Below, piece after piece: positions 1 through 64,000 of a DNA stretch of 64,000 nucleotides. The stretch comes from Nakazawaea peltata (Eukaryota > Ascomycota > Pichiomycetes > Alaninales > Pachysolenaceae). The DNA lies in NCBI GenBank assembly GCA_001599355.1, contig BCGQ01000001.1, positions 1,553,135 through 1,617,134 on the forward strand. Direction: 5' to 3'. The number at the start of each line of letters is the position of its first letter. Positions within the stretch are counted from its first letter, which is position 1. A model generated the notes under the pieces. The model was given only the letters and a program-made list of their open reading frames with translations. It did no database searches and was not told the DNA's origin. A program made the translations under genes and the position numbers.

Positions 1-2297
1 ATCGCGATGACCCTGAACAATTGAAACAGAAAGAAGATAATCCGGAGCAATTCCGTGATAAAGACGTGGGTAAAATCCGAATGGAATTTGCTGGAAGCTA
101 TGAAATACCAATGGAGGGGGAAGTCAAGTCGGTACTTGTTTCGGTGGGGGATGAAATCGTCCATTCTGACCAGGTAGTTCTGACCGTATTAGAGCCTTGT
201 TCTCATCCAATTCAGTATAGTGGACTTTGTGCAGTATGTGGTAAAGATTTGGAGGAAGTTGATTATTCAGAATATAAGCCGGAGGAGAGGAACTCTGTGG
301 CTGTCAGTTATGGATCCTCTAGTATAAAGATGAGTCTTAACGAGGCTGAAAGAATTGAACAGGATCTGTTGAAAAGACTTGTCAAAGAAAAGAAATTGAT
401 TTTAGTAGTGGATTTGGATCAAACCGTAATCCATGCTACTGTAGATCCGACTGTAGCTGAATGGCAAGCTGACCCTTCCAACCCAAATTACTTCGCTGTT
501 AAAGATGTACAGAAATTCAGTTTGGAAGAAGTGCCCTTTGTAGCTCCAGGTTATACAGGACCAAGACCACAGCCAACTGTATGTTGGTATTATGTAAAAT
601 TAAGACCGGGATTACTGGAATTTTTAGAAAAGACCTCGGAAAAGTTCGAAATGCATATCTATACAATGGCCACTAGGGCCTATGCTAAAGCTATTGCTAA
701 GATAATCGACCCTGATGGTCGTTATTTTGGTGATCGTATTCTCAGCAGAGATGAAAGTGGGTCGTTGACTCAAAAATCCTTGAAAAGATTGTTCCCAGTC
801 GACCAATCGATGGTTGTAGTGATTGACGACCGTGGAGATGTTTGGAATTGGAGTCCAAACTTGATTAAAGTAGTTCCTTATGATTTCTTCGTAGGTATTG
901 GGGATATTAATAGTTCATTTTTACCTAGACAGCATGCACTTTTGGGTCCTTCCAAGAAGAGAAAGTCCATAGCTGATTTAGAGGAGAAGATTAATGCTGA
1001 AAAAGATGAGAAGGAATTTGGTCATAGGGAAGATGAAGAAGAAGCAGATGAGAGTGGTGTCAATGACGATTCTGATACTACTATGATCAAAGATGATGAA
1101 GCAGATGGAGTAGAATCAGATTCGGAATCTAATGCCGATTCTACTTCGCTTTCTATTTCTCCAGTGGAAAGAATCCTCGCTTTAGGTGGAGGAGAGGACA
1201 ATACTGGACTTCTGGCTGTTCAATCTTCTGAAAGAAATGCTTCTTTGGAACAACAGCAACATGAGAGACCATTGGCAAAGTTACAACATGATCTTGAACA
1301 AATTGTAGAAAGAGAATCCAAGAATAATACTCCTAAATCTAAAGAATTACAATCCGATTCCGATTCTGGGTCAGGACCTGGAACTGGGGCTGAGTCCGGA
1401 TCCGGTTCAGACTCAGGTTCAGACTCAGACTCTCCTACTCTCAATGAAGAAGATTTGGAAAGTCGTAACTTATTGTTCGACGACGATACAGAACTTCAGA
1501 CACTTGGAATGGCATTAATTAGAATCCACAACGAGTTCTATTATGAATTTGACGACAAACTGAAGTCCAACTCCACCCCAGATGTCAAGGATATCATGAA
1601 CCAAATGAAACAGTATGTTTTCAGTGACTGTACGTTCTTGTTCTCCGGGATATTACCGTTGGGATCTCGATTAGATAGTGCCGATATTGTGATTTGGGCT
1701 AGATCTTTTGGTGCTAAAGTTGTAGCCAACTTCAACAAGTCTGTAACACATGTAATCTGCCGGTCTCTGGGGACTTTTAAAGTGAAATTGGCCAAGACAA
1801 TCAACCCAAATGTAAAACTTGTACACCCCGATTGGATATTCAAATGTATAGCTTTATGGGAGCAAGTTCCAGATGATGAATTTGCCTTACATTTAGAGCC
1901 ATCAGACTTGCTTTCGCAGCAACAAGTTGATGATTACTTAAAAGTGCATAGTATTGAGGATCCAAAGAGTCTGGAATTACGGGAAAGTGAAGATCTGGAT
2001 AGTAGTAGTGAAGCACCTAATTTCATAGAAGGAATTGAATGGGATGATCTTGAAATGGAAGGGTTTTCTGATTCTAGTGATGAGGAAGATCTGTCTGGAG
2101 GTCATGAAGATTCAGTTAAGAAGAGAGATCGTGAGGATGAGATGGATACAGATACTCCATTGAAGAAAAGTAGAATAGAAGAGGAGGGTGAAGGAGAAGG
2201 AGAAGGAGAAGGAGAAGGAGAAGGAGAAGATGAAGGAGATGATGAAGATCTCATGAATGAGATCATGCTGGAACTTGAAAATGACTCAGATGAGTAA
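1..2297 (+). CDS. FCP1: FCP1, RNA polymerase II CTD phosphatase (5' end outside window)
   Basis: FCP1 dephosphorylates the C-terminal repeat domain of RNA polymerase II in the nucleus, recycling the enzyme. The frame is open to the left edge of the window, so the N-terminus is missing; a TTG at position 21 is not a start. The FCPH catalytic motif VVDLDQTVIHA (DxDxT, first Asp codon at 411) and the downstream MVVVIDDRGDVWNWSPNL block are intact. A BRCT domain follows at about nt 1590-1860, ending in VHPDWIFKC. Between the catalytic and BRCT domains lies an acidic, Ser/Gly-Asp-rich linker, and the C-terminus is very acidic with an EG-repeat tract. Order and content match S. cerevisiae Fcp1. Its stop is 69 bp from the stop of the convergent permease gene. 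Confidence 0.96.
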   Translation, partial: RDDPEQLKQKEDNPEQFRDKDVGKIRMEFAGSYEIPMEGEVKSVLVSVGDEIVHSDQVVLTVLEPCSHPIQYSGLCAVCGKDLEEVDYSEYKPEERNSVAVSYGSSSIKMSLNEAERIEQDLLKRLVKEKKLILVVDLDQTVIHATVDPTVAEWQADPSNPNYFAVKDVQKFSLEEVPFVAPGYTGPRPQPTVCWYYVKLRPGLLEFLEKTSEKFEMHIYTMATRAYAKAIAKIIDPDGRYFGDRILSRDESGSLTQKSLKRLFPVDQSMVVVIDDRGDVWNWSPNLIKVVPYDFFVGIGDINSSFLPRQHALLGPSKKRKSIADLEEKINAEKDEKEFGHREDEEEADESGVNDDSDTTMIKDDEADGVESDSESNADSTSLSISPVERILALGGGEDNTGLLAVQSSERNASLEQQQHERPLAKLQHDLEQIVERESKNNTPKSKELQSDSDSGSGPGTGAESGSGSDSGSDSDSPTLNEEDLESRNLLFDDDTELQTLGMALIRIHNEFYYEFDDKLKSNSTPDVKDIMNQMKQYVFSDCTFLFSGILPLGSRLDSADIVIWARSFGAKVVANFNKSVTHVICRSLGTFKVKLAKTINPNVKLVHPDWIFKCIALWEQVPDDEFALHLEPSDLLSQQQVDDYLKVHSIEDPKSLELRESEDLDSSSEAPNFIEGIEWDDLEMEGFSDSSDEEDLSGGHEDSVKKRDREDEMDTDTPLKKSRIEEEGEGEGEGEGEGEGEDEGDDEDLMNEIMLELENDSDE
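2187..2229 (+). repeat. (GGAGAA)n hexanucleotide microsatellite inside FCP1
   Basis: About seven tandem GGAGAA units encode an alternating Glu-Gly run in the acidic tail of FCP1. The repeat stays in frame, so unit number can vary without breaking the protein. Confidence 0.9.
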
Positions 2298-2366
2298 CTC
2301 AAACTCCAACCTACATTGTGTATATCGTAATTAATTCATTTAGAGGCATAAATATTCATAGTTTAT

Positions 2367-5485: not shown

Positions 5486-6100
5486 ATGGGTGCCTACAAG
5501 TATTTGGAAGAATTACAAAGAAAGAAGCAATCTGATGTTGCTAGATTCTTGCTCCGTGTCAGATGTTGGGAGTACAGACAAAAGAACGTTATCCACAGAG
5601 CTTCCAGACCATCTAGACCAGACAAGGCTAGAAGATTAGGATACAAGGCCAAGCAAGGATTCGTTATCTACAGAGTCCGTGTCAGAAGAGGTGGTAGAAA
5701 GAGACCAGCTCCAAAGGGTGCTACTTACGGTAAGCCAACCAACCAAGGTATTAACCAATTGAAGTACCAAAGATCTTTGAGATCTACTGCTGAGGAGAGA
5801 GTTGGTAGAAGAGCTTCTAACTTGAGAGTCTTGAACTCTTACTGGGTTAACCAAGATTCTACTTACAAGTACTTCGAGGTTATCTTAGTCGACCCATCCC
5901 ACAAGGCCATCAGAAGAGATGCTAAGTACAACTGGATCTGTAACCCAGTTCACAAGCACCGTGAATCTAGAGGTCTTACTGCCACTGGTAAGAAGTCCAG
6001 AGGTATCAACAAGGGTCACAAGTTCCACAACACTTCCGCTGGTAGAAGAAAGACCTGGAAGAAGCAAAACACCTTGTCTTTGTGGAGATACAGATCTTAA
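5486..6100 (+). CDS. RPL15: 60S ribosomal protein L15 (eL15)
   Basis: The 204-residue product has exactly the length of yeast Rpl15 and is near-identical over its whole length, from [18 protein letters not shown] to [17 protein letters not shown]. It is a basic structural protein of the large cytosolic ribosomal subunit that binds 25S rRNA. The gene is intronless. Codon use is strongly biased to the preferred set (AGA, GGT, GCT, TTG, AAG), as expected for very high expression, and there is no CTG codon in it. Confidence 0.99.
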
Positions 6101-7008: not shown

Positions 7009-8784
7009 ATGAGTGACTACACAAAGACTGCTATCTTGTCTGTCTACGACAAGACCGGGTTATTGGACTTGGCCAAGGGCTTGGTCGAGAACAAGGTTAG
7101 ATTATTGCTGTCGGGAGGAACCGCCCGTTTACTTAGAGAATCTGGTTTCCCAGTCGAAGATGTCTCTTCCATCACCCATGCCCCAGAGATGTTGGGCGGT
7201 AGAGTCAAGACTTTGCATCCAGCCGTTCACGGTGGTATTTTGGCCAGAAACTTGGAAAGTGATGAGAAGGATTTAGCCGATCAACACATTGAGAAGGTTG
7301 ACTTTGTCGTCTGTAACTTGTACCCATTCAAGGAAACCGTTGCTAAGATTAACGTCACTATTGAGGAGGCTGTTGAAGAAATTGATATTGGAGGTGTCAC
7401 TTTATTGCGTGCCGCTGCTAAGAACCATGCCAGAGTCACTATCTTGTCCGATCCAAAGGATTACCCTAAGTTTTTGGAGGAATTGTCTGCTGGTGAAGTT
7501 TCTAAAGAGGCCAGAGACAAGTTTGCTTTGAAGGCTTTCGAGCACACTGCTGATTACGACACTGCTATTGCTGATTTCTTCAGAAAGAAGTACTCTGAAA
7601 ACGTTTCTCAATTGCCTTTGAGATATGGTGCTAACCCACATCAAAAGCCAGCTCAAGCCTTTGTCTCTGAAGGTTGTGAATTGCCATTCAAGGTCTTGTG
7701 TGGTTCCCCAGGTTACATCAACTTACTTGATGCTTTGAACTCATGGCCTCTTGTCAAGGAGTTGTCTGCTTCTTTGAATTTGCCAGCAGCTGCTTCTTTC
7801 AAGCACGTTTCTCCAGCCGGTGTCGCCGTTGGTTTGCCATTATCCGACGTTGAGAAGAAGATTTACTTTGTCGAAGACATTGAAAACTTGTCTCCATTGG
7901 CTAATGCTTACGCTAGAGCTAGAGGTGCCGACAGAATGTCCTCTTTCGGTGACTTCATTGCTTTGTCTAACATTGTCGATTTGCCAACTGCTCAAATCAT
8001 CTCCAAGGAGGTCTCCGATGGTGTCATTGCTCCAGGTTTTGCCCCAGAAGCTTTGGAACTCTTGAAGAAGAAGAAGGGTGGTAAATACTGTGTCTTACAA
8101 ATCGACCCTAACTACACTCCAGGTCCAGTTGAATCCAGACAAGTTTACGGTATCACTTTGCAGCAAAAGCGTAACGATCTGATCATTAACCAATCCACTT
8201 TCAAGGAAATCGTCTCTGCCAACAAGCTGTTGACTGAACAAGGTGCTATCGACTTGACCGTTGCTACTATTGCCTTGAAATACACACAGTCCAACTCTGT
8301 TTGTTACGCTAAGAACGGTATGGTTGTAGGTTTGGGAGCTGGTCAACAATCTCGTATCCACTGTACTCGTTTAGCTGGTGAAAAGGCCGACAACTGGTGG
8401 TTCAGACAACACCCTCGTGTCTTGGCTTTCAAATGGGCCAAGGGTGTTAAGAGACCAGAGAAGTCTAATGCTATCGACTTATTTGTCACTGGTCAAATTC
8501 CAACTACCGAGCCAGAGAAGAGCGAATACGAGTCCAAATTCGCCGAGGTTCCAGAACCATTGACTGACCTGGAACGTCTGGAATGGATGTCCCAATTGAA
8601 AGACGTTGCTTTGTCTTCTGACGCTTTCTTCCCATTCCCAGACAATGTCTACAGAGCTGCCAGATCCGGAGTTAAATTCATTGCTGCTCCTTCTGGATCC
8701 GTCATGGACAAGCTGGTCTTTGCCGCTGCCGACTCTCATGATATCGTTTATGTCGAGAATCCTATCCGTCTCTTCCATCATTAA
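7009..8784 (+). CDS. ADE17: AICAR transformylase / IMP cyclohydrolase (ADE16/ADE17)
   Basis: This bifunctional cytosolic enzyme catalyses the last two steps of de novo IMP synthesis: formylation of AICAR with 10-formyl-tetrahydrofolate, then ring closure. The product is 591 residues against 592 for yeast Ade17, with near-identity from [20 protein letters not shown] to [14 protein letters not shown]. The start is the ATG at 7009; an in-frame TTG at 6949 would add 20 residues without homology. CTG codons 34, 391 and 407 all fall where yeast Ade17 has Ala (ILASGG, RNDAIIN, KNKALTE). The yeast has one such gene here, so ADE16 and ADE17 cannot be told apart. The stop is 22 bp from the convergent esterase stop. 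Confidence 0.97.
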
Positions 8785-8806
8785 GTAATTTGATTCATAT
8801 TTAATA

Positions 8807-11817: not shown

Positions 11818-11881
11818 TCTACAATTGAATATAATGAAATATAAATAGAATACTATATTGAAAAGCAAGTTGTAACTAGTC

Positions 11882-14295: not shown

Positions 14296-16818
14296 TTAGA
14301 TACCGCTCCAGAAAATATCCTTGGAAGCAGAGAAAGAGGCAGACAATGGAGTGTTGTCAGAAGAGTTACCAACAACGATCGAGTAGTCACCCAGTTCACT
14401 CTTCCATTTGTCTTGGTACTCATCGAAGAAGGAGGTAGCGTACTTGAAAGAGGTGGTGAGCTCAACGGTTTCGGTGGAACCCAGCTTGACAAACTTCTTC
14501 TCAAAGTTCTTCAATTCTTTAACTGGTCTGGTAATTGATGGGTTCTTTGGAGCAATGTACATTTGAACAACCTCGGCACCATCAACAGAACCGGTGTTCT
14601 TGACATCGACAGAGATGGTCAATTTGTCAGACAGTTGATCAGCAGCAATAACCTTCAAGTTAGAAAGCTCGAATGAAGAGTAAGATAAACCAAATCCGAA
14701 TGGGAATAAGACAGGTCTGTCAATCTTCTCGTAGTACTTGTAGTCAACGTAGACATCTTCTCCGTACCAAGTCTCACCATTGTTAGTCTTGAAGTTGAGG
14801 AACAGAGGGTTGTCCTCGTTTCTGATAGGGAAGGAGATGGACAATTTACCACTTGGGTTAACATCACCGTACAAGACGTCAGCAATGGCATTACCCAATT
14901 CAATACCGGTGAACCAAGCATTGACAATCAGAGGAACCTTTGAGGCAAATGGCAAGGTAACTGGAGTACCAGATTGGTTGACGACAATGGTGTTAGGGTT
15001 GGCCTTCAAAACAGCCTCGACTAACTCAACTTGCAAACCAGGCAAGTGCATGTCAGCTCTGTCGAAACCTTCGGACTCGTGCTCCATAGAGGTCCCAACA
15101 AAGACAATAGCCTTCTCGACTTCCAGAGCAATCAGAGCCAGCTTCAGGATCTCTTCCTTTTGGTCCAAGACCTTCTCGAAACCGACACTTAAGGCACCAC
15201 CACCGTTGGTGGAAACCAAATCGTTGGTCTCAAGGGTGAAAGTAGGAGAGGAACCGAATTCGATAGTGATACGGTGAGTCTCACCCTTCTTCAAAGTGAT
15301 ACGCTTTCTCATCTCGATAGTACCAGCACCCAAAGTACCTTGACCGGCAGTTTGCTTGGTCTTGTTGTCGATGAACAATTCACCATCGATGAACAATTGC
15401 AGGGTACCCAAACATCCGACACCGAACTCGTACTCACCATCCTCCTCGACAGTAAGGAAACCTTCGATATCCAAGAAGAACAAATTCTTCTTAGTCAAAC
15501 GTTCATTCTTGTAGTCGAAAAGAACCAAGTTGGAGCTTTCCAAACCGAATTCTTCGGCGAATTCACGGTTCTCAGTTCCAGCTGGGTCCAAATAGGTACG
15601 GTTCCAGAAACCTGGCTCACCATTCTTGTTCTTGACAGCAGCACCGAGATCAGACAAGGCATTGTTGATGGTAGTACCGACAGCAAACAGAGGCAGCTCA
15701 CCAAGCTTCTTACTGATACCACTGTAAGGGTCAACCTTGTAGTAACATTGCATAGAAGCGGAACCACCACCAGAGACACGGGCAACCTTAGCGTTAGGAC
15801 CAATGACAGCAATCTTGTCGGACTTCTTCAAAGGCAAGATGTTGTTCTCGTTCTTCAAAAGAACAATGGTCTCTTGAGCAATACGACGCAACTTCTCGCT
15901 GGTCTCTGGGGTGTTGTTGTCGGTGGATTCTGGACCGTTTTCAACGTACTTAGGGTTGTTGTTGATACAGTACTTGACCAATTTCAAAACGTTTCTGACA
16001 CGCTCATTAAGAACATTAATATGAAGTTCCTTAGAGTTGACAGCATGGGCAACAGCATCGTATTTACGCAGAACTGGTGGACCAGGCATCTCAATATCTA
16101 AACCAGCATCGATGGCCTCCTTCAAAGAGTATACACCGAACCAATCGGACATCAAAGTACCATCCCATCCCCATTCCTTACGCAAGATATCGGTAAGCAA
16201 ATAGCTAGATTGGGAAGCATGTTCACCGTTGACTCTGTTATAAGAAGTCATGATCAGTTTAGGGTCTGAGTCACGGATGGCAAGTTGGAATGGTAATAAG
16301 TAGACCTCACGCAAAGCTCTTTGAGAAACACGAGCATTGGTAGAGTTACGTTCATCTTCTAAATCGTTACAAACATAGTGCTTTAAAGTAGCAGCAACAC
16401 CCTTGGATTGCATACCGTTAATAACTGCGGAAGCACACATACCACTTAAAACTGGGTCTGGAGAGTAACTCTCGAAACCACGACCTCCCAATGGACCTCT
16501 TTGAATGTTTACAGTTGGACCAAGAATGATTTGAGCACTCTTTGTGGCGGCCTCATCGGCCATTAATTGACCCAGCTCAAACAACAATTCCTTGTTGAAA
16601 GTGGATCCTAAAGCAGTACCGTTAGGGAAACACAGAGAAGGGATACCTTTGAAAAACTTGGTACCTCTGATACCGTTAGGTCCGTCGGACATTCTAACGG
16701 ACGGAACATTCAAACGGGGGATACTGGCGGTATGCCAGAAATCGATACCGGAGATCAAACGGATCTTTTCGTCGAGGGTAAGCTCGGAGATTACTTTTTC
16801 AATATCAAAGTCGGACAT
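14296..16818 (-). CDS. Beta-glucosidase, glycoside hydrolase family 3 with PA14 domain
   Basis: The 840-residue enzyme belongs to GH3 and releases terminal beta-linked glucose. The N-terminal barrel holds the nucleophile in TLMSDWFG (Asp225), the same number as the catalytic Asp recalled for Kluyveromyces marxianus BglI, and KHYVCNDLEDERN just before it. A PA14 domain interrupts the second domain at about residues 390-530, the architecture of K. marxianus BglI. EHESEGFDRADM carries the expected acid/base Glu, and a fibronectin-III-like domain ends the protein. No signal peptide precedes MSDFDIEKVI, so it is probably intracellular and works with a glucoside permease. Codon use is well biased, suggesting good expression. 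Confidence 0.95.
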   Translation of the reverse strand: MSDFDIEKVISELTLDEKIRLISGIDFWHTASIPRLNVPSVRMSDGPNGIRGTKFFKGIPSLCFPNGTALGSTFNKELLFELGQLMADEAATKSAQIILGPTVNIQRGPLGGRGFESYSPDPVLSGMCASAVINGMQSKGVAATLKHYVCNDLEDERNSTNARVSQRALREVYLLPFQLAIRDSDPKLIMTSYNRVNGEHASQSSYLLTDILRKEWGWDGTLMSDWFGVYSLKEAIDAGLDIEMPGPPVLRKYDAVAHAVNSKELHINVLNERVRNVLKLVKYCINNNPKYVENGPESTDNNTPETSEKLRRIAQETIVLLKNENNILPLKKSDKIAVIGPNAKVARVSGGGSASMQCYYKVDPYSGISKKLGELPLFAVGTTINNALSDLGAAVKNKNGEPGFWNRTYLDPAGTENREFAEEFGLESSNLVLFDYKNERLTKKNLFFLDIEGFLTVEEDGEYEFGVGCLGTLQLFIDGELFIDNKTKQTAGQGTLGAGTIEMRKRITLKKGETHRITIEFGSSPTFTLETNDLVSTNGGGALSVGFEKVLDQKEEILKLALIALEVEKAIVFVGTSMEHESEGFDRADMHLPGLQVELVEAVLKANPNTIVVNQSGTPVTLPFASKVPLIVNAWFTGIELGNAIADVLYGDVNPSGKLSISFPIRNEDNPLFLNFKTNNGETWYGEDVYVDYKYYEKIDRPVLFPFGFGLSYSSFELSNLKVIAADQLSDKLTISVDVKNTGSVDGAEVVQMYIAPKNPSITRPVKELKNFEKKFVKLGSTETVELTTSFKYATSFFDEYQDKWKSELGDYSIVVGNSSDNTPLSASFSASKDIFWSGI

Positions 16819-38594: not shown

Positions 38595-39521
38595 ATGGGT
38601 TTTGCACCAGTGAGTAAAAGATTCGGTGTGAATTTCGAGAGACTTCCTACTCCGGTGAAGATCTTTTTCGAAAGACTTCAAAAGAGAGGACAAATCCCAG
38701 CCGTTCAAAGAAACTTATTGGATGTGCCTGATAAAGAGAGATATAAGACATTTGAGCAGTGGAAATATCTTCCGGGAGACCGTGTTATGATTGTCAAAGG
38801 AGAGCATAAGGGTGTAGTCACTAGAATTGCAGCTCAGCAGCAATCAAGTAATGGTTTCTTCTTGGAAGAAGGTCCTTCGAAGAGAATTGTCGTTCCTAAA
38901 GAATATTGGCGTCAAAGTCAAGACTCCCATGTTATTGACTATCCTATCGCTGTGACTAGAGACTATTTCAAATTGGTTGGTACTTTAGAAGAAGAAGGAT
39001 CTCTGCCAAAGACTTTCGCCGCTGATGACGTGGTATTCCGTGGTAAATATTGGGACGAAAATCACAAGAAAATGTTACCTTACAGATGTGTTAAGAATAA
39101 TGAGCATATTGTAATTCCATGGCCAGCTCCAGAACCTATTGTCGACGATGCTTTATGTACTCCGGAGGACAAACTGCATGAGAGAACCTATTTCCCAACC
39201 TCGATCGTTCATTCTGGCTTGCCATCCGATTTGAGACTGAGTTTAAGATCCCCATTGGCTAAGCGTAAGATCCCACGTTATGCTAAACAGTACATTACTA
39301 AATCTGATATCAAGAGATTGACACATCCTGAGATGCCAGAACCAGAGTTCAAGAAACTGCTGAGAGAAGAGAAACTGATGTTACTGAGTAAGGCAATTAA
39401 ATTCACCCCAGACATGGAAGAGTTCATAGGTAAAAGAGTTGCTCAACATTTGAACTCGATTTCGAATCCTCATATGTTGGAGTACCTTGAGAGAGTTGGT
39501 GGTAAGAAGAAGAAGGAATGA
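38595..39521 (+). CDS. MRPL40: MRPL40, mitochondrial ribosomal protein uL24m
   Basis: The 308-residue product matches the mitochondrial large-subunit protein of the bacterial L24 family (yeast Mrpl40, 297 residues). The KOW element is YLPGDRVMIVKGEHKGVVTRI (about residues 55-75), used in rRNA binding. The C-terminal extension rich in basic residues is typical of fungal mitoribosomal L24. A classical cleavable presequence is not obvious, as in the yeast protein. Divergence from other genes and a GTCGTGCAC promoter site are described separately. Confidence 0.93.
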   Translation: MGFAPVSKRFGVNFERLPTPVKIFFERLQKRGQIPAVQRNLLDVPDKERYKTFEQWKYLPGDRVMIVKGEHKGVVTRIAAQQQSSNGFFLEEGPSKRIVVPKEYWRQSQDSHVIDYPIAVTRDYFKLVGTLEEEGSLPKTFAADDVVFRGKYWDENHKKMLPYRCVKNNEHIVIPWPAPEPIVDDALCTPEDKLHERTYFPTSIVHSGLPSDLRLSLRSPLAKRKIPRYAKQYITKSDIKRLTHPEMPEPEFKKLLREEKLMLLSKAIKFTPDMEEFIGKRVAQHLNSISNPHMLEYLERVGGKKKKE

Positions 39522-39591: not shown

Positions 39592-40863
39592 TCACAATTT
39601 TTCATAGTCCAATTTACCTTCCAATTTTTTAGTTTCAACCACTTTTCTAACAGCCTTCATCAAGTCGTCCTGAAGAATATGGTCACGGTCATCTCTAATT
39701 GCGAAGAAACCGGCCTCGGTGATAACGTTACGAATATCGGCACCATTGAATCCATCACTCATTTTAACTGCGGCTTCGAAATCGAATTCTCCACGTTTGT
39801 TAACCTTCAGAGTGTGAATCTTGAAGATCTCTAAACGACCTGCTTCATTTGGTAATGGGATTTCCAATTTTCTATCCAAACGACCAGCACGTAAAAGAGC
39901 AGGATCTAAAGTATCAGGTCTATTTGTGGCCATGATGACTTTAGTTTGACCCAAATAATCGAAACCATCCATCTGATTCAATAATTCCATCAATGTACGT
40001 TGGATTTCTCTGTCTGCAGATGTACCTTCGGAGAATCTCCTTCCACCAATGGCATCGATTTCATCCATAAAGATAATACAAGGTTCATGTTCCTTAGCAT
40101 AACTAAACATTTCTCTAATCAAACGAGCGGATTCTCCAATATATTTGTCTACAATGGCTGACAGAGGAGAGAAGATGAAGTTGGCTCCAATAGTAGCGGC
40201 AACTGCCTTTGCCAACAATGTTTTACCAGTACCTGGAGGTCCATATAACAATACACCCTTTGGAGGCTTGATACCAACACGGATGAATAACTCTGGATTT
40301 TTCAATGGTAACTCAATGACTTCACGCAATTCTCTGATTTGTTCTGTCAAACCACCAATACCAGCAAATGAGATTTCTCCAGGCTCAAATGTAGTCATAT
40401 TATAAACCAATGGATCAACCTCACGTGGCAATATACGCATGATTGTCAATGTGGTCATATCCAATGCAACACGTACTCCTTGCTTCAATTGATCTCTCTT
40501 GATAGTGCTTCTACATCCGACAATGTAACGTGGACCCGATGACAGTTTGATGATATATCTTTCCTCATCCAATTGCTTCAACACCTCTCCAATTACCTGT
40601 CCAATACTTTGTAACAGCTTGATGTCTTGCTCTGTCTTGTCATAATCCTTCTCCAAATCCCGTATATTCATTCTGAGTTCTTTCAATTTCAGTTCCCATT
40701 GTCTATGTTCGACTAACTTGTTCTTCAATTGAGTCAAGGCTCTATTACGTTCGATCTGTTCTGGGGTTTCTTGTGGTTGTTCAGGTTGTTGTTCGGTTGG
40801 TTGCTCACCATTGTTGTTGTCCTCATTCAAGGCCTCTAAGAGAGGATCGTTTTCTTCACTCAT
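39592..40863 (-). CDS. RPT4: RPT4, 26S proteasome AAA ATPase subunit
   Basis: Rpt4 is one of six ATPases that unfold substrates in the proteasome base. The 423-residue protein has the N-terminal coiled coil, an OB domain, Walker A GPPGTGKT (208-215), Walker B IIFMDE (263-268) and the SRH region. Standard translation puts Leu at residues 83, 107, 234 and 352, but all four are CTG and all four align with Ala in yeast Rpt4 (IKALQS, VKASSG, FSPASG, HTAKVK). The usual LLRPGRLDR reads LLRAGRLDR here, encoded by GCT, so that change is real. It begins MSEENDPLL, as in yeast. Confidence 0.98.
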
Positions 40864-41115: not shown

Positions 41116-42525
41116 ATGGAGTTTCATGCGTTAATCTTCTGTGGTAAAGGTGAAGGATTATCACCATTGACTAGTATTCGGAAATCTGGGATTCCTAAGG
41201 CTCTTCTTCCGGTAGCTAATAAACCATTGATTCAATATGTTTTAGAATGGTGTGATGAGGCATCTTTCCGTGAGGTTTCGGTGGTGGCTGATCAGCATGA
41301 TCATCTGCTGATTAAAGCTGTTGTTGATGCATACATGAAAAGTAATAGAAGACTGGAAATTTTAGCCTCTGAATCCGGTTCAATCTCTGCTGGAGGTCCT
41401 TCTGGGGCTGTCAAGATCAACTGCATAAGCGTAAGTTCTGACCTTACCACTACTGGAGAGATTGTCCAATCGTTGAAGCCTCAAATCACTTCAGATTTTG
41501 TCATTCTTCCCTGTGATATTATCACTGATTTACCACTGCAAGTGTTAATTGAACTGTATCGTAATAAAAATGAGCACGATTTAGGACTCACCGTGTTCTA
41601 CAATAACGGTTTCGATGCTGCCGATAAGAAATCTTTGAAGACCAATTATACGATTTATTCGACTCTGGATGATGGTCGTCAATGTCTTTTGGATTTATAT
41701 TCCAAGGAATCGGTGGAGATCCATAAAGTATTGGAAGTACGGACACAAATGGTATGGAGATACCCTCAAGTATCTGTTTCTACTATGTTATTGGACTCTT
41801 TTATCTATTTCTGTTCCAAAAAGGTGCTTGATATCGTTTCTGATGAATTCTCACGTCATAAATCGGGTAAATCATGTACTAAAGTGATTAGAGATTTGGC
41901 TCGTCGGTCATGGCGTCATTCTGCTCCAAAGGAAACCATGGGTTTCTTCTTATTACCAAAACAATGTACATTTGCCCGTTGTAACAATTTATCGGTGTAC
42001 ATGGAGGCCAATAGACACTTTATGAAGTTACAACTGCAACGTAGTCACCATTCGGGGGCTCTGGCTATAGCTCCAAAAGAGAAGGGGGCTGCCACTATTG
42101 GAGCTGACTCGACAGTGGGTGAAGATTCCGTAGTAGGTGAACGTACCAGTGTGAAGAGAACCGTTGTTGGAAATGGTTGCACCATTGGAAAGAGATGTCG
42201 TTTGACAGGGTGTATTCTCTTGGATAAAGTGACACTTGGTGATGATGTGCATCTTGAGAACTGTATTATTGGAACAAAACTGATCATTCAAAGTAAATCC
42301 AAGTTGGTGAATTGTAACGTTGAAGGAGGATTTAATATTGGTAAGGGGACTCAAAGTAAGGGAGAGACACTTGTATCTCTTGAAGAAATGGAGTTTGGAG
42401 AGAGTGATGAAAGTGATGTGTTGTATGATGAATTGAGTGATGAAGATGAGAGTGGGGATGATAGTGAATATGATGGGGAGTTTGATGATGATGTTCCAAG
42501 TGACGATGATTTGTTTGCTAGGTAA
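41116..42525 (+). CDS. GCD1: GCD1, eIF2B gamma subunit
   Basis: eIF2B is the guanine nucleotide exchange factor of translation initiation factor eIF2. The 469-residue protein has an N-terminal nucleotidyltransferase-like domain (MEFHALIFCGKGEGLSPLT, then IPKALLPVANKPLIQYVLEW) and a C-terminal left-handed beta-helix of hexapeptide repeats (about 330-415: VGEDSVVGERTSVKRTVVG, LGDDVHLENCIIG). It ends in an acidic tail of about 40 residues. It is shorter than S. cerevisiae Gcd1 (578) but domain order agrees; the epsilon subunit would carry a W2/HEAT domain, absent here. Confidence 0.9.
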   Translation: MEFHALIFCGKGEGLSPLTSIRKSGIPKALLPVANKPLIQYVLEWCDEASFREVSVVADQHDHLLIKAVVDAYMKSNRRLEILASESGSISAGGPSGAVKINCISVSSDLTTTGEIVQSLKPQITSDFVILPCDIITDLPLQVLIELYRNKNEHDLGLTVFYNNGFDAADKKSLKTNYTIYSTLDDGRQCLLDLYSKESVEIHKVLEVRTQMVWRYPQVSVSTMLLDSFIYFCSKKVLDIVSDEFSRHKSGKSCTKVIRDLARRSWRHSAPKETMGFFLLPKQCTFARCNNLSVYMEANRHFMKLQLQRSHHSGALAIAPKEKGAATIGADSTVGEDSVVGERTSVKRTVVGNGCTIGKRCRLTGCILLDKVTLGDDVHLENCIIGTKLIIQSKSKLVNCNVEGGFNIGKGTQSKGETLVSLEEMEFGESDESDVLYDELSDEDESGDDSEYDGEFDDDVPSDDDLFAR

Positions 42526-42552
42526 TAGATGAGGAGTGTAAGATAGGTGAAT

Positions 42553-43524: not shown

Positions 43525-46500
43525 ATGTCTGAGGCCAAGACCATTGTTCTCGAGAACACTGTCCGTAGGGACGCCTTGATTGAGATCGAAAAGAAGTACC
43601 AACTGATCTGGAAGGAGGAGCGTATCAACGAATTAGATGCTCCAACTGGAGCTGAGGAGAGTTATGGTACTCTGCCTGAGGAACTTGAGAAGAAACATCC
43701 TAAATTCTTCTCCTCCATGGCTTACCCATATCCTAACGGTGTCTTACATGCCGGTCATTCTTTCACTTTCTCCAAGACCGAGTTTGCCGTTGGTTTCGAA
43801 AGAATGAGAGGAAAGAGAGCCGTCTATCCTTTGGGTTTCCATTGTACTGGTATGCCTATCCGTGCCACTGCTGATAAGTTAGCTAGAGAAATCGAGATGT
43901 TCGGTGAGGACTTCTCGGGTGCTCCAAAGGATGACGAGGAAGAGGAGGTTGTCGCTGCTCCTAAGGCCAAGAGAGAGGACGTTTCCAAATTCACCTCAAA
44001 GAAATCCAAAGCTGCCGCTAAGCAAGGTAGAGGTAAATACCAATTCGAAATTATGAAGCAATTAGGTGTTCCAGTTGAGGATATTCCAAAGTTCGCTGAC
44101 CCAGTTCATTGGTTGTACTATTTCCCACAATTAATCCGTGAAGATGTTGATCTGTTTGGTGGACGTATCGATTGGAGAAGATCTATGGTCACCACCGACG
44201 TCAACCCTTACTATGACTCGTTCATCAGATGGCAAATGCGTGAATTAAAGAAGTTGGATAAGATCAAGTTCGGTGAAAGATACACCATCTACTCCGTCAA
44301 GGATGGTCAACCATGTATGGACCATGACAGACAATCTGGAGAAGCCGTTGTTCCTCAAGAATATACCGGTATCAAGATTGAAGTCTTGGACTTTGCCGAA
44401 CAAGCCAAAGAGCTGTTCAAACTGGCTGACTTTGACATCTCCGGTGATAAGAAGTTCTACTTTGTCGCTGCCACTTTGAGACCAGAGACCATGATTGGAC
44501 AAACCTGTTGTTTTGTTTCTCCAAAGATCGATTATGGTGTCTTCAAGGCTAATAAGGAAGGTACCGAATACTATATCTGTACTGAAAGAGCCTTCAAGAA
44601 CATGTCATACCAAAAATTGACCCCAGTTAGAGGTGATTACAAGCTGGCTGTCACTGTAAATGGTAAGGCTTTCATCGGTTCTGAGATTCATGCCCCATTG
44701 GCTCATCACCAACGTTTACGTATCTTACCTATGGAGACCGTTCTTGCTTCTAAGGGTACTGGTGTTGTTACTTGTGTTCCTTCTGACTCTCCAGATGATT
44801 TCGTCACTCAACGTGAGTTGCTCAATAAGCCAGAGTACTATGGTATTCAACGTGAATGGGCTGACTTTGACCTTGTTCCTATTATCCGTACCGAGAAGTA
44901 TGGTGACAAGACCGCCGAGTTCTTATGTAATGACTTCAAGATCCAATCTCCAAAGGATGCCGTTCAATTGGCCAAGGCTAAGGAATTGGCTTACAAAGAA
45001 GGTTTCTATAACGGTGTCATGATCGCTGGTAAGTATGTTGGAGAGAAGGTTGAGGTTGCTAAGCCTAAGGTTAAGGCCGATTTGATCGCCGCTGGTGAGG
45101 CCTTTGTATACAACGAGCCAGAATCTCTTGTTATCTCTCGTTCTGGTGACGAATGTATCGTCTCTTTGGAAGACCAATGGTACACTGATTACGGAGAAGA
45201 ATCATGGAAGAAGGAAGCTCTTGAGTGTTTGAACCAAATGAACTTATTCACTACCGAGACTCAAAACCTGTTCGAGAATGTCTTGGATTGGTTAAAGAAC
45301 TGGGCTTTGTCGAGAACTTATGGTTTGGGTACTAAAATTCCATGGGATGAGAAGTACTTGGTTGAGTCTCTTTCTGATTCTACCGTTTACCAACTGTTCT
45401 ATACCATTTCTCATTTGTTACACTCTGACATCTACGGTAAAGTAGTTGGACCTTTGGGTGTTGAGGCCTCTCAATTGACTGACAGTGCCTTCGACTACAT
45501 TTTCCACAGAACTGAGACTGTTCCAGAAGACAGTACTATCCCAGCTGAGAAATTGAATGTCTTGAGAAGAGAATTCGAGTACTTCTACCCATTCGACTGC
45601 TCCATCTCCGGTAAGGATTTGATTCCTAACCATTTGACTTTCTTCATCTACTGTCATGTTGCTTTGTTCCCTAAGAAGTTCTGGCCTCGTGGTATCAGAG
45701 TTAACGGTCACTTGTTATTGAACAACGCTAAGATGTCTAAATCTACCGGTAACTTCATGACCTTGAAGCAAATCACCGAGAAATTCGGAGCCGATGCTTC
45801 TCGTATCGCTTTGGCTGATGCTGGTGACTCTGTTGAAGATGCTAACTTTGACGAAAGTAACGCTAATGCTGCTATCTTGCGTTTGTACACTTTGAAGACT
45901 TGGATCGAAGAAGTTACTGCTAACTTGGGAGAATTACGTACTGGAGAGTTCAATTTCTTCGATCTTGCTTTCGAAAATGAGATGAACCAATTGATCGAAG
46001 AGAGTTACAAGCATTATGAGAACACCAACTACAAGTATGCTTTGAAATCTGGTTTATTCGACTACCAAACTGCTCGTGATTACTACCGTGAATCTACTTC
46101 TAGTGAAGGTATGCACAAGGATTTGGTTCTCCGTTATGTCGAGACTCAACTGCTCTTATTACAACCAATTGCTCCTCACTTTGCCGAGTATGTGTACCGT
46201 GATATCTTGGGTAAGAAGACTTCTGCTCAATTTGCCAAATTCCCAACCCTGAGTAAGCCTGTTTCTAAACTGGTAAGTGACTCTTTGGAATACGTCAGAG
46301 ACTTGGCTCGTACCGTCAGAGAAACCGAGGGAGCTCTCTTAAAGAAGAAGAAGGGTAACAAGCCAGCTGAAATTGACGCTAAATCTCCTGTTAACTTAAC
46401 TTTCTTGATTGGAGCTTCTTTCCCAGAATGGCAAGACAAGTATATTGAGGTTGTTCGTGAAGCATTCGAGAACCAAACTTTGAATGATAACAGTGTCTTG

Positions 46501-46827
46501 AAGCAAAAGGTTGGTAGTGATATGAAGCGTGCTATGCCTTTCATTTCTATCTTGAAACAAAGATTGAGTGTGGAGCCAGCTGAACAAGTCTTCAACAGAG
46601 AATTATCATTCGATGAGATTGCTACCGTCAAACTGACCTTGGCTATCTTGAAGAAGAGTCCAGCTCAATTGACTGCCAATGAAGTTCAAGCCGTTGTAAT
46701 TGACGGAGCTGATCTGAAACAAGGAAAGGATATCATTACTGGTGAGACCGTTGAGATTTCTGCTAGTGCTAAGATTCTCGAGGCTGCCGTCCCAGGTCAT
46801 CCTGCAGTTGTTATTAAGAATATATAG
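43525..46827 (+). CDS. CDC60: CDC60, cytosolic leucyl-tRNA synthetase
   Basis: LeuRS charges leucine tRNAs in the cytosol. The 1100-residue protein (1090 in yeast) shows the HIGH-type motif PYPNGVLHAGHSFT (HAGH at 75-78), the CP1 editing domain with TLRPETMIGQTCCFV and GTGVVTCVPSDSPDD, and KMSKS at 736-740. The start is ATG 43525; an in-frame GTG two codons earlier is not a start. CTG codons 582 (KNAFEG in yeast) and 876 (ETQALLL) stand at conserved Ala. In CUG-Ala yeasts this enzyme must not charge the tRNA that reads CUG, which makes it directly relevant to the altered code. Confidence 0.98.
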   Translation: MSEAKTIVLENTVRRDALIEIEKKYQLIWKEERINELDAPTGAEESYGTLPEELEKKHPKFFSSMAYPYPNGVLHAGHSFTFSKTEFAVGFERMRGKRAVYPLGFHCTGMPIRATADKLAREIEMFGEDFSGAPKDDEEEEVVAAPKAKREDVSKFTSKKSKAAAKQGRGKYQFEIMKQLGVPVEDIPKFADPVHWLYYFPQLIREDVDLFGGRIDWRRSMVTTDVNPYYDSFIRWQMRELKKLDKIKFGERYTIYSVKDGQPCMDHDRQSGEAVVPQEYTGIKIEVLDFAEQAKELFKLADFDISGDKKFYFVAATLRPETMIGQTCCFVSPKIDYGVFKANKEGTEYYICTERAFKNMSYQKLTPVRGDYKLAVTVNGKAFIGSEIHAPLAHHQRLRILPMETVLASKGTGVVTCVPSDSPDDFVTQRELLNKPEYYGIQREWADFDLVPIIRTEKYGDKTAEFLCNDFKIQSPKDAVQLAKAKELAYKEGFYNGVMIAGKYVGEKVEVAKPKVKADLIAAGEAFVYNEPESLVISRSGDECIVSLEDQWYTDYGEESWKKEALECLNQMNLFTTETQNLFENVLDWLKNWALSRTYGLGTKIPWDEKYLVESLSDSTVYQLFYTISHLLHSDIYGKVVGPLGVEASQLTDSAFDYIFHRTETVPEDSTIPAEKLNVLRREFEYFYPFDCSISGKDLIPNHLTFFIYCHVALFPKKFWPRGIRVNGHLLLNNAKMSKSTGNFMTLKQITEKFGADASRIALADAGDSVEDANFDESNANAAILRLYTLKTWIEEVTANLGELRTGEFNFFDLAFENEMNQLIEESYKHYENTNYKYALKSGLFDYQTARDYYRESTSSEGMHKDLVLRYVETQLLLLQPIAPHFAEYVYRDILGKKTSAQFAKFPTLSKPVSKLVSDSLEYVRDLARTVRETEGALLKKKKGNKPAEIDAKSPVNLTFLIGASFPEWQDKYIEVVREAFENQTLNDNSVLKQKVGSDMKRAMPFISILKQRLSVEPAEQVFNRELSFDEIATVKLTLAILKKSPAQLTANEVQAVVIDGADLKQGKDIITGETVEISASAKILEAAVPGHPAVVIKNI

Positions 46828-48452: not shown

Positions 48453-49820
48453 CTACTCATCCTTAGTATCATTAGGCCTCTCCCATTTAACAGCCAAATC
48501 AATTCTATCCCTAGGAAACCACCATTCAAGAACATAATACAATAGTATATCCACCACAACACATAATACATACAACTTTCCTGCCCATAACCCCCCATTG
48601 TAGAATAAGCCAAGTCGATCGATGACTGAATGCGACTCATGACATCTCATCATATTAGAATAAACAATCTCGGTTCTACGAGCAATATCGGCCCAATTAT
48701 AGATATCCGACACCTCATCATGGAAAGAAGAAGGATCTATCTTATTGTTACTCATTATGTTGATCAGTTTCTGAGTCAGTTCAACTAAAGAATTCTCTTC
48801 GGGATCGGCAAATACTGTCATATGATTAGGGAGCACTTCGGGAATACCACCAACACGTGTAGTAACTACAAAGAGACCACAAGAAGCCGCCTCTACAAGT
48901 ACTGTACCAAACAGTTCAGTTAATGACGGATGAAGATAAATATGTCCTTGGATCATCACGTTACGTACTTGTTCATGCTTAATACTTCCAATAAGTTCTA
49001 CACGGTCTTGAAGTTGGTATTTTTCCCTCATTTGATCTAAATCGATGAATTTCGGGCCGTCTCCAGCGATGAGGAAACGGATCGCAGGGTTTTGCAGACA
49101 AATCCTTGGGATTACTGCTGTAAGAAGATCAGCACCTTTATTTTGGAAGAGTCTTGAAATCACTACAATCGTAAGAGCTCCAGGAATAGTTGGTTTTACT
49201 TTAGTTTCGGCCGGCTTGAAATCCTCAGCAATAACAGCATTAGGAATTACACTGACTTTAGCTGGATCTAAAGACAGTCGAAGAACAATATTCTCTTTAC
49301 AAGTATGAGAGACACAAATTACATGACCCACATCACTCAAGGTGAATTTTAAGAGCTTATTACCTAATATGGAGCCGACAGTAGCGAATCCAAATAATGA
49401 ATGGTCGGTGAATACTGTTTGAAGGCCCATAGTACGGGCATGGAGCATCAGTTCATGACTTAATGCACTGAAAGATCCATGGCCATGGACAATATCGACT
49501 TGTTCTCTAATAAATATGTTCCGGAGGATCGGGAAAGCCGAAAATACCGTCGGAAATGTCACTTCTCGATAGAGTACAAAGAATGGAACATAGTATACTT
49601 TAAGACCGTTGGTAAGATATCGTACACCATTACGATCTCCATATGCATGAGTGATGATGACCACATTATGACCGGCGTCTATCAATTTCTGAGAAAGATG
49701 ATATACATGGAGCTCAACACCCCCTGGTTGAGGGTAGAAGAAGTCAGAGACCATCCTGTGATCGTTAGTAGATGGGCGGTTAAGGTGAAGAGGAAGGACT
49801 TACAGTATGTTGTAGGGCAT
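48453..49820 (-). CDS. SPT14: SPT14/GPI3 (PIG-A), GPI-anchor GlcNAc transferase catalytic subunit (exons 49804..49820, 48453..49755)
   Basis: Spt14 transfers GlcNAc from UDP-GlcNAc to phosphatidylinositol at the ER, the first step of GPI-anchor synthesis. The GT4 fold is clear: [55 protein letters not shown] with the EX7E motif, and a C-terminal anchor ([18 protein letters not shown]). A 17-nt first exon supplies MPYNI; the split codon CT/G then joins to MVSDFFYPQ, giving [15 protein letters not shown] under the Ala code against MGFNIAMLCDFFYPQ in yeast. Total 439 residues (452 in yeast). Confidence 0.96.
49756..49803 (-). other. SPT14 intron, 48 bp, splitting a CTG codon
   Basis: On the minus strand: donor GTAAGT, branch TACTAAC (plus-strand 49764-49770), acceptor ACAG. 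The joint restores the conserved N-terminus. It is the shortest intron of the window and interrupts a CTG after its second base. Confidence 0.93.
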
Positions 49821-53855: not shown

Positions 53856-53907
53856 ATATAATAGACATCGTCAAATGATCATTCACCTTGTATTCTAGAT
53901 ATACATA

Positions 53908-57570: not shown

Positions 57571-57644
57571 TGCATACATCTCCTGTTTAAAGTGAAAAAA
57601 GACAATTGTACAGTTGTAATTCAGACTATATTAATTAAATAACC

Positions 57645-59375: not shown

Positions 59376-62300
59376 TCACACCATCAAGTCATAACTGATA
59401 CCCAGATGCCAGCATTTGAGATCGAACGATGACTGAAGTTGTGAAACATGTGAATCCCATGACTCTGTATCGACTCCATCTGTATTTAATGAGTCAATTG
59501 TCACTTTCATCAGCTTTAAATACCCTAAACATAAATTCCATTTCTTTTGAGTAGTACATTGTTTGAAGAAGGACTCGAAATCCAGCCAATCTGATTCTGA
59601 AGGTCCGCTCTCCAGAGTCTCGTTGATCCATAATTGAATTGACAGGTCTGTATAAGGGGGTTCAGGAGAAACCCCCAATTGTTTCAGTAAAATTCCTGTC
59701 ATATGAATCGATCTATTTGATCTTTCTTGTTCTAAATCATTGAGAATATTCTTTTCTAGTTCCTCCATATCACGTCTACTCTGAGATAAACGCAGTTGAA
59801 GTTCTGCTTGATGTTGTAATTCCTCTCTTAAATCTTTACGGACCGACGAGGGAAGCTCAGCAAGGAAAGAACTATTAATTTGAGCAGGTGCCTGTGCTGG
59901 AGGAGACATCGACAGTGACAGAGACCGGGGTCTTGGTCTCTGGCGTTTTCTGGGACTCTCTTTAACTGGGGAAACTACACGAACTACTTCTACTTGATCT
60001 GCGTTCCCACGAAGAGGGAATACTTGTTGAAGATGTGTTTTCGTGGCTGTTGTGACTCGCCTCTTTCTAGGAGTGGAAGGTTTACTATCCAATGGAATAT
60101 CACGACGTTCTAATTCCATTTTTAATTCTCTTTGGATTTCTTTTGGAAGCAATTTAAATACTTCCCAGTCGATTTGGGAGCCTGTAGGCAATGCAGTTAC
60201 GGTCTGTTGTTGGAGTTGATGTTGAAGCTGCATATTCAGAGGCAATTCTTTAACAACACTACTATCAAGATCACTTGGAAGACCATATATAGATGTTTCT
60301 GATCTCAGGACAACAGGCGAAGAGTCGATTGGCACAATCGGAGCCAGATTAAATTGAGGTTTGATTTCTGTTTGTAAACTTTTATCATTATTTTTCTGTA
60401 ATTCGTTTTGTTCTTTATGAATTTCTTTCACTTCCGCTTCTACTTCCTCTTTGCTCATCTTGGTAAAAGGTAATCTTCTCTGATCGCTCTTACTCATTCC
60501 CTCTTGAACCAAATTAGTCATCATCAATGAAACACCACGGAGTTCATGCACAGGAACATTTAAAGTACGGAATAAAGACTTCAGTTCACTACTCAAAAGA
60601 CCCAGCTCTCTTGTAGCAAGTCCTAGTCTTGAACTTTTAGACACAAATTCACACCTTCCCATTCCTAGATACTTGGGTGGTTCCACAGGAGCTCCTTCTG
60701 CTCGTATAGCCAATTTTAAACTTAAAGTAGCACCTTTCATCCCCAGTTTTACGAGTCTTTGTTGCATCTCTTGACAACACAATAGAAGGAAGTCTTCAAC
60801 TTGCTGCGGAGTATCGAATCGAATGCCCCAATTGATATCTATTGAGATACTTTTACGTATAAATTCTTCTGGGGCTGCTGATATGTCGATATTGGTGTGA
60901 TCGATTCCGCGAGCATACTCAAAGAGCTTGGCCCCAGTCTTAATACCAAATAAAGAGGTGAGGGAAGCTTTATCGATCTGTCTTAGAAATGAAATAAGTA
61001 TGGGAGAGCGCGAATAATGTGATTCAAGTTTAGAAGTCGTCGAATACCCCACGCCAGGAAGGTCTTTAAGAGTGAAATTATCAAGAAATGACTCAATTTG
61101 AGCAGAATCCACTCCCTCATCAGTAACTCCTACCTCCAAAAATCCGTCTGGTTTAGCTTTTCGAAGAGCCAACTTCAGTAGAAGTACATTAGGTCCACAT
61201 CCAACACTAACCGGACAATTAGTAGCTCTCAAAATGGACTCCCGAAGTTCAGAGGCTATACTGATAATATTATCTTTTATAGAATCAGAATCACCCACAG
61301 ATACAAGTCCAGTCACATCTAATAGCAGTTCATCTACAGAAACTGGTAGCACGGCATCACATCCTAAAGATATCAAAATATCATAGAACTGACGTGAAAC
61401 TTTCTCATACAGATCGAAATTGTAGTCAAGGGTGACCAAATTGGGACATAACTTCTTTGCTGCCAGCATCCACATACCATTACGGATTCCTGAAGCCCTG
61501 GCAACGTAATTACAACTAGCTATATCTGCACTACGACTACCGTGGGTTACTGCTACAGGAGTGGTTGCGATGTCGATGCCTGGGGTGTTCAATGCTGATA
61601 CAGTAGCAAAGAAACAGTCGAAATCAACATGAAAGATCACTCTACGAGTCTTCTTTTGAGTTCTAGACCTATTAGAACCTTCTTTCTCCATCTTAGCAAG
61701 GGCTTTATTGAGAAATTCATATTTGAGATCAGCTTTCCATGTACTAAGATGATGTAATCGAGATTTTGAAAAGAAATACTTCAAGAAATCGGGATGCTTG
61801 GCATCAATTGTCTCATTTTCTTCCTCTTTCTCCTTCTCCTTCTGAGCTCCAAAATTTAACTTAGTTTGCCCGTATTCTACATTTATGAGCTTAAAATCTC
61901 CCCATGGTAGTAATTTTCTTGCCTTTACCGACTCTGTAATCCATTCTGGTAGCACTACTTTGTAGTTTTTGAACTCAAGCAGTTTCCTAGGAGTAAGATT
62001 AGATGCTATGATATGAGTGGCATTACCTTTCAGACCAAGATAATGAAGAAAGTTTCCTCCGTAAAGAACAATGAGTTTATGGAGTTGTGAGATATCAGGA
62101 TCAGTTTTTCCATTGACATGTACCGTACAACCTCTGAAAATTGGGGGGTAGGTAAGACTCAGAGGTGATGAGGGTATTAGTGGAGTATCACATTTCAGTT
62201 CCAGGGAATTGTTATTCATCTGAACTCTTCTTTTCAAATCCCATTCTCTATATTCTTCATCAGCAAGTTGTTGTTTCCTCTGTTTCTCTTTAAAATATGT

Positions 62301-62801: not shown

Positions 62802-63626
62802 TCAAGTCATCGGTTAACTCGAGGGCGATTTTTCGCGTCCTCGAGCGATGAGCTAAACTTAGCATATTACGAATTAGTATGAAAATTCATTAGGAGCATA
62901 TTTTAATACGAAATCGGAAGGTATTAACGATATTAGTAATGTGCTAAAAACGATTTTCGGAAGATGCCGCGTTAAGTAGTCGGTGTGCCGCAGTTTATTT
63001 GGGTTGCTGTACACGACCGGATTAGTAACAGGTGAATAAGAGAGGATTGAGGTGGATAAGAGCAAAGAAGGTGAATCTTGATCTCTTAATTCACACAGTC
63101 TCAGGAAGATAAATCTACAATGAACTCATTCCCATGCTCAGTTGCTGCAGCTTCTCACCTCCTTCCCTACCCTCTCCCCCCCCCCTCCTCTACCCCTCCG
63201 CCCTTCTGAATCAGCAAAATCTAAAAGAAACCGAGAGCGAAAAGGGAAAAATGACAAAAAATCAGTAATTGTTAGTCATTTTAGAGGGGTTGACAAGTAT
63301 AGAACAGGAAGCGCTGTAAGGAAGAAGTTTGATTTGTTTATTGATCCATCGAATCCCACTCTTAGGTCAGCATCATTAAACGGTTTAACGTCTTTTTAGC
63401 CCGTTTTCCACCCATTTATTTCATTTCTCTCACACTTTGCAAATCCTCAATACTACGAGCTTTAGATTCAGTATAAAGTCGGCTTCATATAGAAGTATTG
63501 TCGAGTTTTGTTTGATTGCAAGTGTCCAATTTGAAGTCCCGGATCATATTCACTAGTATTGATTTGCTACATTTGATTGTGTTATAGATTTATACACCCA
63601 AAAGGCCAACGCCACCACACCAAAAA
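62802..63626. promoter_or_regulatory. REV1 / RSP5 divergent intergenic region
   Basis: The REV1-proximal part has AGCATATTACGAAT (62861-62874), a relaxed copy AGCATATTTTAATACGA (62894-62910) and a reverse copy ATTAGTAATGTGCT (62932-62945), then GTACACGACC (63009-63018). A C-rich pyrimidine tract is at 63155-63200. The rest up to RSP5 is AT-rich with no gene seen. Confidence 0.55.
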
Positions 63627-64000
63627 ATGGCTCAACATAAAATCACCGTCAAATTAATCGGTGCCGAAGCATTGTATAAGCGGGATGTATTCAGATCTCC
63701 CGATCCATTCGCCGTATTGACCATCGATGGGTCTCAGACAAAAAGCACCACCGCCGCTAAGAGAACATTGAACCCTTTCTGGAATGAAACTTTTGAGTTC
63801 AATGCTAATGAGAATTCCATCTTGGTTATCCAAGTATTCGATCAGAAGAAGTTCAAGAAGAAGGATCAAGGTTTCCTTGGTGTCATCAACTTGAGAATTG
63901 GTCAAGTACTTGACTTTTCTTCCTTGGGTAATGTTGAAGAAACCACTACTGTCCCATTGAAAAGATCTAATGATAATTTGGAAGTGAGTGGTCAGTTAAT
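63627..64000 (+). CDS. RSP5: RSP5, NEDD4-type HECT ubiquitin ligase (N-terminal C2 domain; 3' end outside window)
   Basis: Only the first 124 codons lie in the window, and the frame runs open to the right edge. They encode a C2 domain that follows yeast Rsp5 closely: [40 protein letters not shown], and [20 protein letters not shown], including the Asp residues of the calcium/phospholipid loops. Rsp5 ubiquitylates plasma-membrane and endosomal cargo; the WW and HECT domains should follow beyond the edge. The ATG at 63627 is the first in frame and gives [16 protein letters not shown], matching the start of the family. Confidence 0.96.

Follow-up and report, generated by a model that had tools for sequence, protein, structure and literature searches.

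Evidence from masked alignments that CUG encodes alanine in a 64-kb window of budding yeast DNA

Introduction

The yeasts of the CUG-Ala clade, in which the codon CUG stands for alanine, provide one of the rare cases in which a sense codon of nuclear genes has changed its meaning in nature. Here we analyze a stretch of DNA of 64,000 nucleotides (hereafter, the window), for which the initial annotation claimed that CTG is decoded as alanine, and conclude with high confidence that it comes from the nuclear genome of a budding yeast that decodes CUG as alanine (NCBI code 26) and keeps the standard meaning of the remaining codons, including the three stops.

Reassignment of CUG to alanine in Pachysolen and its relatives, to which the initial annotation appealed, is indeed established, with an NCBI code and a known clade. 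In the CUG-Ala clade (Nakazawaea, Peterozyma and Pachysolen), a novel tRNA with a CAG anticodon is derived from tRNA-Ala, and the ancestral tRNA-Leu(CAG) has been lost; the alanyl- and seryl-tRNA synthetases (AlaRS and SerRS) require no particular anticodon bases, and CUG prefers poorly conserved sites (PMC5951914). The clade comprises five species in one study (PMC6692504), and in Pachysolen, CUG was found at zero highly conserved leucine or serine sites (PMC4986446). The order Alaninales includes a single family, Pachysolenaceae (NCBI taxonomy). The meaning of CUG in Ascoidea rubescens is disputed, having been given as alanine in a 2017 review (PMC5499181) and as serine by mass spectrometry (PMC5951914).

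Results

The 27 open reading frames (ORFs) of the window that were treated as genes contain 258 CTG codons among 15,359 sense codons, that is, 16.8 per 1000. For 10 of these ORFs, chosen for likely solved homologues and for the number of CTGs, every CTG was replaced by X before the PDB was searched; the carboxylesterase yielded no PDB match at 1e-45, a cut-off that was too strict. From the 38 printed alignments, 21 homologue rows were used, leaving aside mutants, alternative constructs of a protein already represented and the epsilon chain of eIF2B; the REV1 row retained the BRCT and polymerase stretches but not two weak ones, and the rows of human leucyl-tRNA synthetase (LeuRS) are incomplete at their ends. 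The sequences were re-aligned with blastp for the tally, so that a few cells deviate from the HMMER alignments, and the species labels of the PDB chains are those that we take to apply, not database output. Among the 98 CTGs in nine genes, 75 align to at least one PDB homologue, giving 172 cells. Alanine is the most common partner (40 cells), followed by Gly and Ser (14 each), Thr, Lys and Pro (12 each), Val (11), Asp, Glu and Gln (9 each) and Leu (7), the rest being fewer.

Each of the 61 sense codons was then hidden in turn and its meaning inferred by BLOSUM62 likelihood, with one vote per column. The standard residue was recovered for 56 of the 61 codons, the five that deviate being CTG (75 columns, Ala), ATA (20 columns, a near-tie of Val and Ile) and three codons with at most nine columns, namely, AGC (9), ACG (5) and CGC (2). 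Hidden CTG was inferred to be alanine, 8.0 bits over serine and 68.1 bits over leucine, and among 1000 bootstraps, Ala was obtained in 863, Ser in 102, Gln in 35 and Leu in none.

A fairer comparison was restricted to eukaryotic homologues, which leaves 69 columns and 109 cells, with control codons matched to CTG on the share of self-identity and drawn 5000 times each. We denote by A-S and A-L the lead of alanine over serine and leucine, respectively. For CTG, A-S is +11.1 and A-L is +67.7, compared with +6.8 (standard deviation 4.7) and +64.3 (6.6) for matched alanine codons; matched serine codons have an A-S of -30.2, with the largest value at -10.3, and matched leucine codons have an A-L of -62.6, with the largest value at -36.8. 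Bootstrapping of CTG in this set (5000 replicates) gave Ala 4366, Gln 452, Ser 172 and Glu 7. Because of these matched-control scores, CTG is indistinguishable from an equally conserved alanine codon and lies outside the ranges of serine and leucine codons. Thus, the CTG columns match alanine, and match neither the leucine of the standard code nor the serine of NCBI table 12 at equal conservation.

These results exclude the leucine reading of CTG. Under the standard code, the CTG sites would be merely variable, and CTG is indeed located in poorly conserved columns, but the A-L values of CTG and of matched leucine codons have opposite signs, and a mixture fit places 0% of the CTG columns in a Leu-like class (bootstrap 0–0.4%). 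We assign this explanation a negligible probability and regard it as refuted by the present data, barring systematic alignment error; the alignments do return Leu for the five other leucine codons (CTA barely so, with 10 columns).

Domain scores point the same way. Pfam scores were obtained for 20 of the 27 ORFs, each translated by codes 26, 1 and 12, and cover 37 domains, one family being kept per overlapping region. The totals were 4672.5 bits with CTG as alanine, 4637.4 as serine and 4530.5 as leucine, so that alanine leads leucine by 142 bits and serine by 35.1. Alanine outscores leucine in 33 of the 37 domains and in all 20 genes, and serine in 25 domains, with 8 lost and 4 tied (Wilcoxon p 0.001), and in 14 genes (p 0.013). 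The sums omit IMS_HHH_1 of REV1 and PK_C of PYK1, which contain no CTG, and the PA domain of PFF1 (22.5 for Ala, 21.2 for Ser, not reported under Leu). The NOT4 RRM (26.3/25.1/25.6 for Ala/Leu/Ser) and the NIP100 CAP-Gly domain (78.7/77.8/79.3) also stand outside the sums and leave the picture unchanged. The domains of RTF1 and RPN11 contain no CTG, and the RTF1 scores under the three codes (95.4/95.8/95.2) indicate the noise level. Codon 122 of PYK1 is covered solely by the PK domain (546.5 bits for Ala, 546.0 for Ser and 545.1 for Leu). Both the masked PDB alignments and the Pfam scores therefore support the decoding of CTG as alanine that the initial annotation proposed.

Several observations weigh against alanine, some of them in favour of serine, the residue assigned to CUG in the Candida (Ser1) and the Ascoidea and Saccharomycopsis (Ser2) clades. 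In the PDB set, the A-S of +8.0 for CTG is well below the mean of true alanine codons (36.7) and below even their lowest value (9.5) in 5000 subsamples. Columns invariant across at least two homologues make up 6 of 49 for CTG, compared with 86 of 193 for GCN codons; the six are Ala in 4 cases, Ser in 1, Gln in 1 and Leu in none. The serine code gives the higher Pfam score in 6 of the 20 genes. Alanine codons are not enriched beside CTG (5.0%) relative to the neighbours of other codons, and no tRNA gene was found within the 64-kb window.

Addition of 162 bacterial loci (GH3 80, AAP 20, MFS 15, CES 12, SDR 12, ABH 11 and ADE17 12) extended the alignments to 14 genes, in which 103 of the 133 CTGs are covered. 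Meant to sharpen the distinction between alanine and serine, these homologues, which are distant (about 20–55% identity) and often family relatives rather than orthologues, blurred the signal instead. Alanine remains first, with its lead over serine at 5.2 bits and bootstrap counts of Ala 743, Ser 236 and Gln 21 of 1000. Among the 49 CTG columns covered by at least three homologues, a single residue accounts for 60% or more in 16: Ala in 4, Ser and Pro in 3 each, Thr in 2, and Phe, Met, Lys and Glu in 1 each. With Ala at 4 and Ser at 3, conserved columns alone do not separate the two residues in this set. Three CTG columns are mostly serine with bacteria, SDR 212 (8 of 8), ADE17 34 (10 of 13) and GH3 672 (52 of 83), despite Ala at ADE17 34 in two of three eukaryotes and at GH3 672 in the yeast enzyme; ABH 148, GH3 560, CES 190 and GCD1 389 are mostly alanine. 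We rate the weaker lead of alanine here as dilution by distant proteins, and as the weakest point of the case. A first scan of genome contigs turned up no relative.

Serine ranks second by score in the PDB, bacterial and eukaryotic sets alike. True serine codons, however, never reach a positive A-S in 5000 draws, their largest values being -19.4 (PDB), -13.8 (bacterial) and -10.3 (matched), whereas the A-S of CTG is positive throughout, and the Pfam totals place Ala ahead. We consider the serine reading strongly disfavoured and its probability very low.

An ambiguous CUG, read as alanine plus some serine or leucine, seems to us slightly less probable still. The mixture fit assigned 42% of the CTG columns to an Ala-like class (bootstrap 19–66%), 51% to an unconstrained class and 7% to a Ser-like class, for which the bootstrap range (0–27%) leaves some room; yet dropping Ser costs only 0.2 log-likelihood units (lnL), compared with 8.3 for dropping Ala, and the Leu site class stays below 0.4%. 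In Pachysolen, CUG is reportedly read as Ala in more than 99% of cases, an earlier figure of 10% Leu having been called a method error (PMC8645108). Low-level misreading is invisible to comparative data. A trace of the origin of CTG by one-step neighbours was too weak to use: L, M, V, P, Q and R make up 38% of the non-Ala partners at CTG, 27% at GCN and 34% over all columns.

At the level of individual sites (Table 1), an in-frame CTG is present at every position named in the initial annotation: RPT4 codons 83, 107, 234 and 352, ADE17 34, 391 and 407, CDC60 582 and 876, PYK1 122 and REV1 492. The claim that these fall on alanine of the orthologues holds for the four RPT4 codons, ADE17 34 and REV1 492, and weakly for ADE17 391 (C/A/G). 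It fails, as a further point against alanine, for ADE17 407 (D/T/D), CDC60 582 (N) and CDC60 876 (T) in the homologues seen, among which S. cerevisiae LeuRS is not included. The description of FSPAS in Rpt4 as nearly universal among eukaryotes was too strong, the human chain having VVSSS. Likewise, the statement that no CTG occupies a conserved leucine or serine stands for leucine (none of the six invariant columns) but is less secure for serine once bacteria are added, given the three mostly-Ser columns above. Overall, the observation is partly confirmed and its interpretation supported.

Table 1 Coordinates of the CTG sites and associated features in the window, with the residues of homologues
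Feature	Positions	Strand	Remarks
RPT4 (26S proteasome ATPase)	39592..40863	-	5 CTG
RPT4 CTG codon 83, read as Ala	40615..40617	-	A in yeast, A in human Rpt4
RPT4 CTG codon 107, read as Ala	40543..40545	-	A in yeast, A in human
RPT4 CTG codon 234	40162..40164	-	A in yeast, S in human
RPT4 CTG codon 352	39808..39810	-	A in yeast, G in human
ADE17 CTG codon 34	7108..7110	+	G/A/A in three eukaryotic PDB homologues; S in 10/13 with bacteria
REV1 CTG codon 492 (S-x-D-E-A motif)	61326..61328	-	A in PDB Rev1
REV1 CTG codon 542	61176..61178	-	A in PDB Rev1
GCD1 (eIF2B gamma) CTG codon 389	42280..42282	+	A in 3/3 homologues
GH3 beta-glucosidase CTG codon 560	15139..15141	-	A in 4/4 aligned PDB homologues; 44/67 with bacteria
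GH3 beta-glucosidase CTG codon 630	14929..14931	-	A/S/A/G/A
GH3 beta-glucosidase CTG codon 672	14803..14805	-	A in yeast homologue 3abz, S/S/S/P in other four; S in 52/83 with bacteria
GH3 beta-glucosidase CTG codon 809	14392..14394	-	A/S/T/A/T
CDC60 (cytosolic LeuRS)	43525..46827	+	13 CTG
CDC60 CTG codon 624	45394..45396	+	A in human LeuRS
MRPL40 (uL24m) CTG codon 194	39174..39176	+	A in yeast uL24m
NOT4 codons 332-340, CTG CTG CTG GCT CTG GCT GCT GCT GCT	27203..27229	+	CTG interspersed in alanine run
SPT14 split CTG, bases 1-2 (CT), exon 1 end	49804..49805	-	exon 1 = 49804-49820, read from sequence
SPT14 intron	49756..49803	-	48 nt, GTAAGT ... CTACTAAC ... CACAG; TACTAAC at 49764-49770
SPT14 split CTG, base 3 (G), exon 2 start	49755..49755	-

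One further CTG, in SPT14, is split by an intron, as the initial annotation had it: exon 1 reads ATG CCC TAC AAC ATA CT, and exon 2 opens with G ATG GTC, the two being separated by a 48-nt GT...AG intron with a TACTAAC. Presumably, the residue at this position of S. cerevisiae Spt14 is alanine. The TACTAAC motif is not above chance in the window (6 observed, 6.1 expected) and therefore supports introns only where the splice sites match.

NOT4, which encodes the RING protein of CCR4-NOT, also likely contains an intron (26085-26190), with a GTAAGT start and TACTAAC at 26175-26181. Exon 1 ends with GATTTATG at 26084 and exon 2 begins with TCCATTATGTGT at 26191; joined, the exons read DLCPLCVEEMDL, supplying the RING with its first Cys pair. 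The ORF as used (26210-27964) begins too late.

The window is gene-dense and yeast-like, with a GC content of 40.8%. The genes, named from Pfam, the PDB molecule names and the labels of the initial annotation, include RPT4, ADE17, CDC60, REV1, GCD1, RPN11, RPL15, PYK1, SPT14, SNP1 and MRPL40. All three stop codons are used (TAA 12, TAG 9 and TGA 6). CTG ranks 27th among the 61 codons, at 1.68 times the expectation from position-wise base composition, and, counted as alanine, accounts for 258 of 1120 alanine codons, only GCT (454) being more frequent. Among the genes whose codon bias is strongest, two are nearly or entirely devoid of CTG, RPL15 (5486-6100) with 0 in 204 codons and PYK1 (57645-59159) with 2 in 504, and CTG becomes scarcer as the bias increases (Spearman -0.48, p 0.01, 27 ORFs), by a crude bias measure based on a self-chosen set of favoured codons. 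Outside the high-bias genes, CTG is common, reaching 36 per 1000 in NOT4. CTA (31) and GCG (35) are strongly avoided, reaching 0.16 and 0.17 times the counts expected from base composition.

Pfam gave zero matches at E 0.001 for the ORFs at 32377-33990 (537 aa) and 53061-53855 (264 aa). The adjacent region 53856-57644, about 3.8 kb, is gene-poor, its single ORF above 150 aa being 55763-56263 (166 aa from ATG, with no Pfam match). The cytosolic leucyl-tRNA synthetase gene, CDC60, is encoded in the window itself and carries multiple CTG codons of its own.

Discussion

The reading of CUG as alanine has a direct practical consequence. Standard-code protein models carry a wrong leucine at 258 places over the 27 ORFs, as the initial annotation warned in general terms, and code 26 should therefore be used for the contig. 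By analogy with the published systems, CUG would be decoded by a tRNA-Ala whose anticodon has mutated to CAG; such a tRNA could be charged by AlaRS, which ignores the anticodon, and the ancestral tRNA-Leu(CAG) would have been lost. In a CUG-Ala yeast, the product of CDC60 would no longer serve CUG. Of specialist interest is the pattern of usage, with CUG regularly employed in the window yet seldom present where codon bias is strongest.

From the code and the literature, we infer membership of the organism in the CUG-Ala clade, which forms the order Alaninales (Pachysolen, Nakazawaea and Peterozyma), because the sections of PMC5951914 consulted describe one nuclear clade with that code. An organism outside Alaninales, in which CUG would have passed from leucine to alanine independently for a second time and become a common rather than a rare alanine codon (258 of 1120), appears most improbable. 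The finding is essentially right, and the code in question has been known since 2016, the organism being an ordinary member of the clade unless it falls outside Alaninales.

Compared with the clades in which the code has changed, where CUG has been described as relatively rare, CTG in the window is not obviously so (27th of 61 codons, 1.68 times the expectation). The CUG-Ser1 (Candida) and CUG-Ser2 (Ascoidea and Saccharomycopsis) clades have the same codon reassigned, but to another residue, one that is disfavoured in the window. With the CUG-Ala clade, as described in PMC5951914 and PMC6692504, the window shares both the reassignment itself and the placement of CUG in poorly conserved positions, the latter in agreement with PMC5951914 and with the finding in Pachysolen (PMC4986446). 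The closest counterpart is NCBI table 26, by which the nuclear genes of Pachysolen tannophilus are read; the window has in common with it CTG as alanine and all other codons standard.

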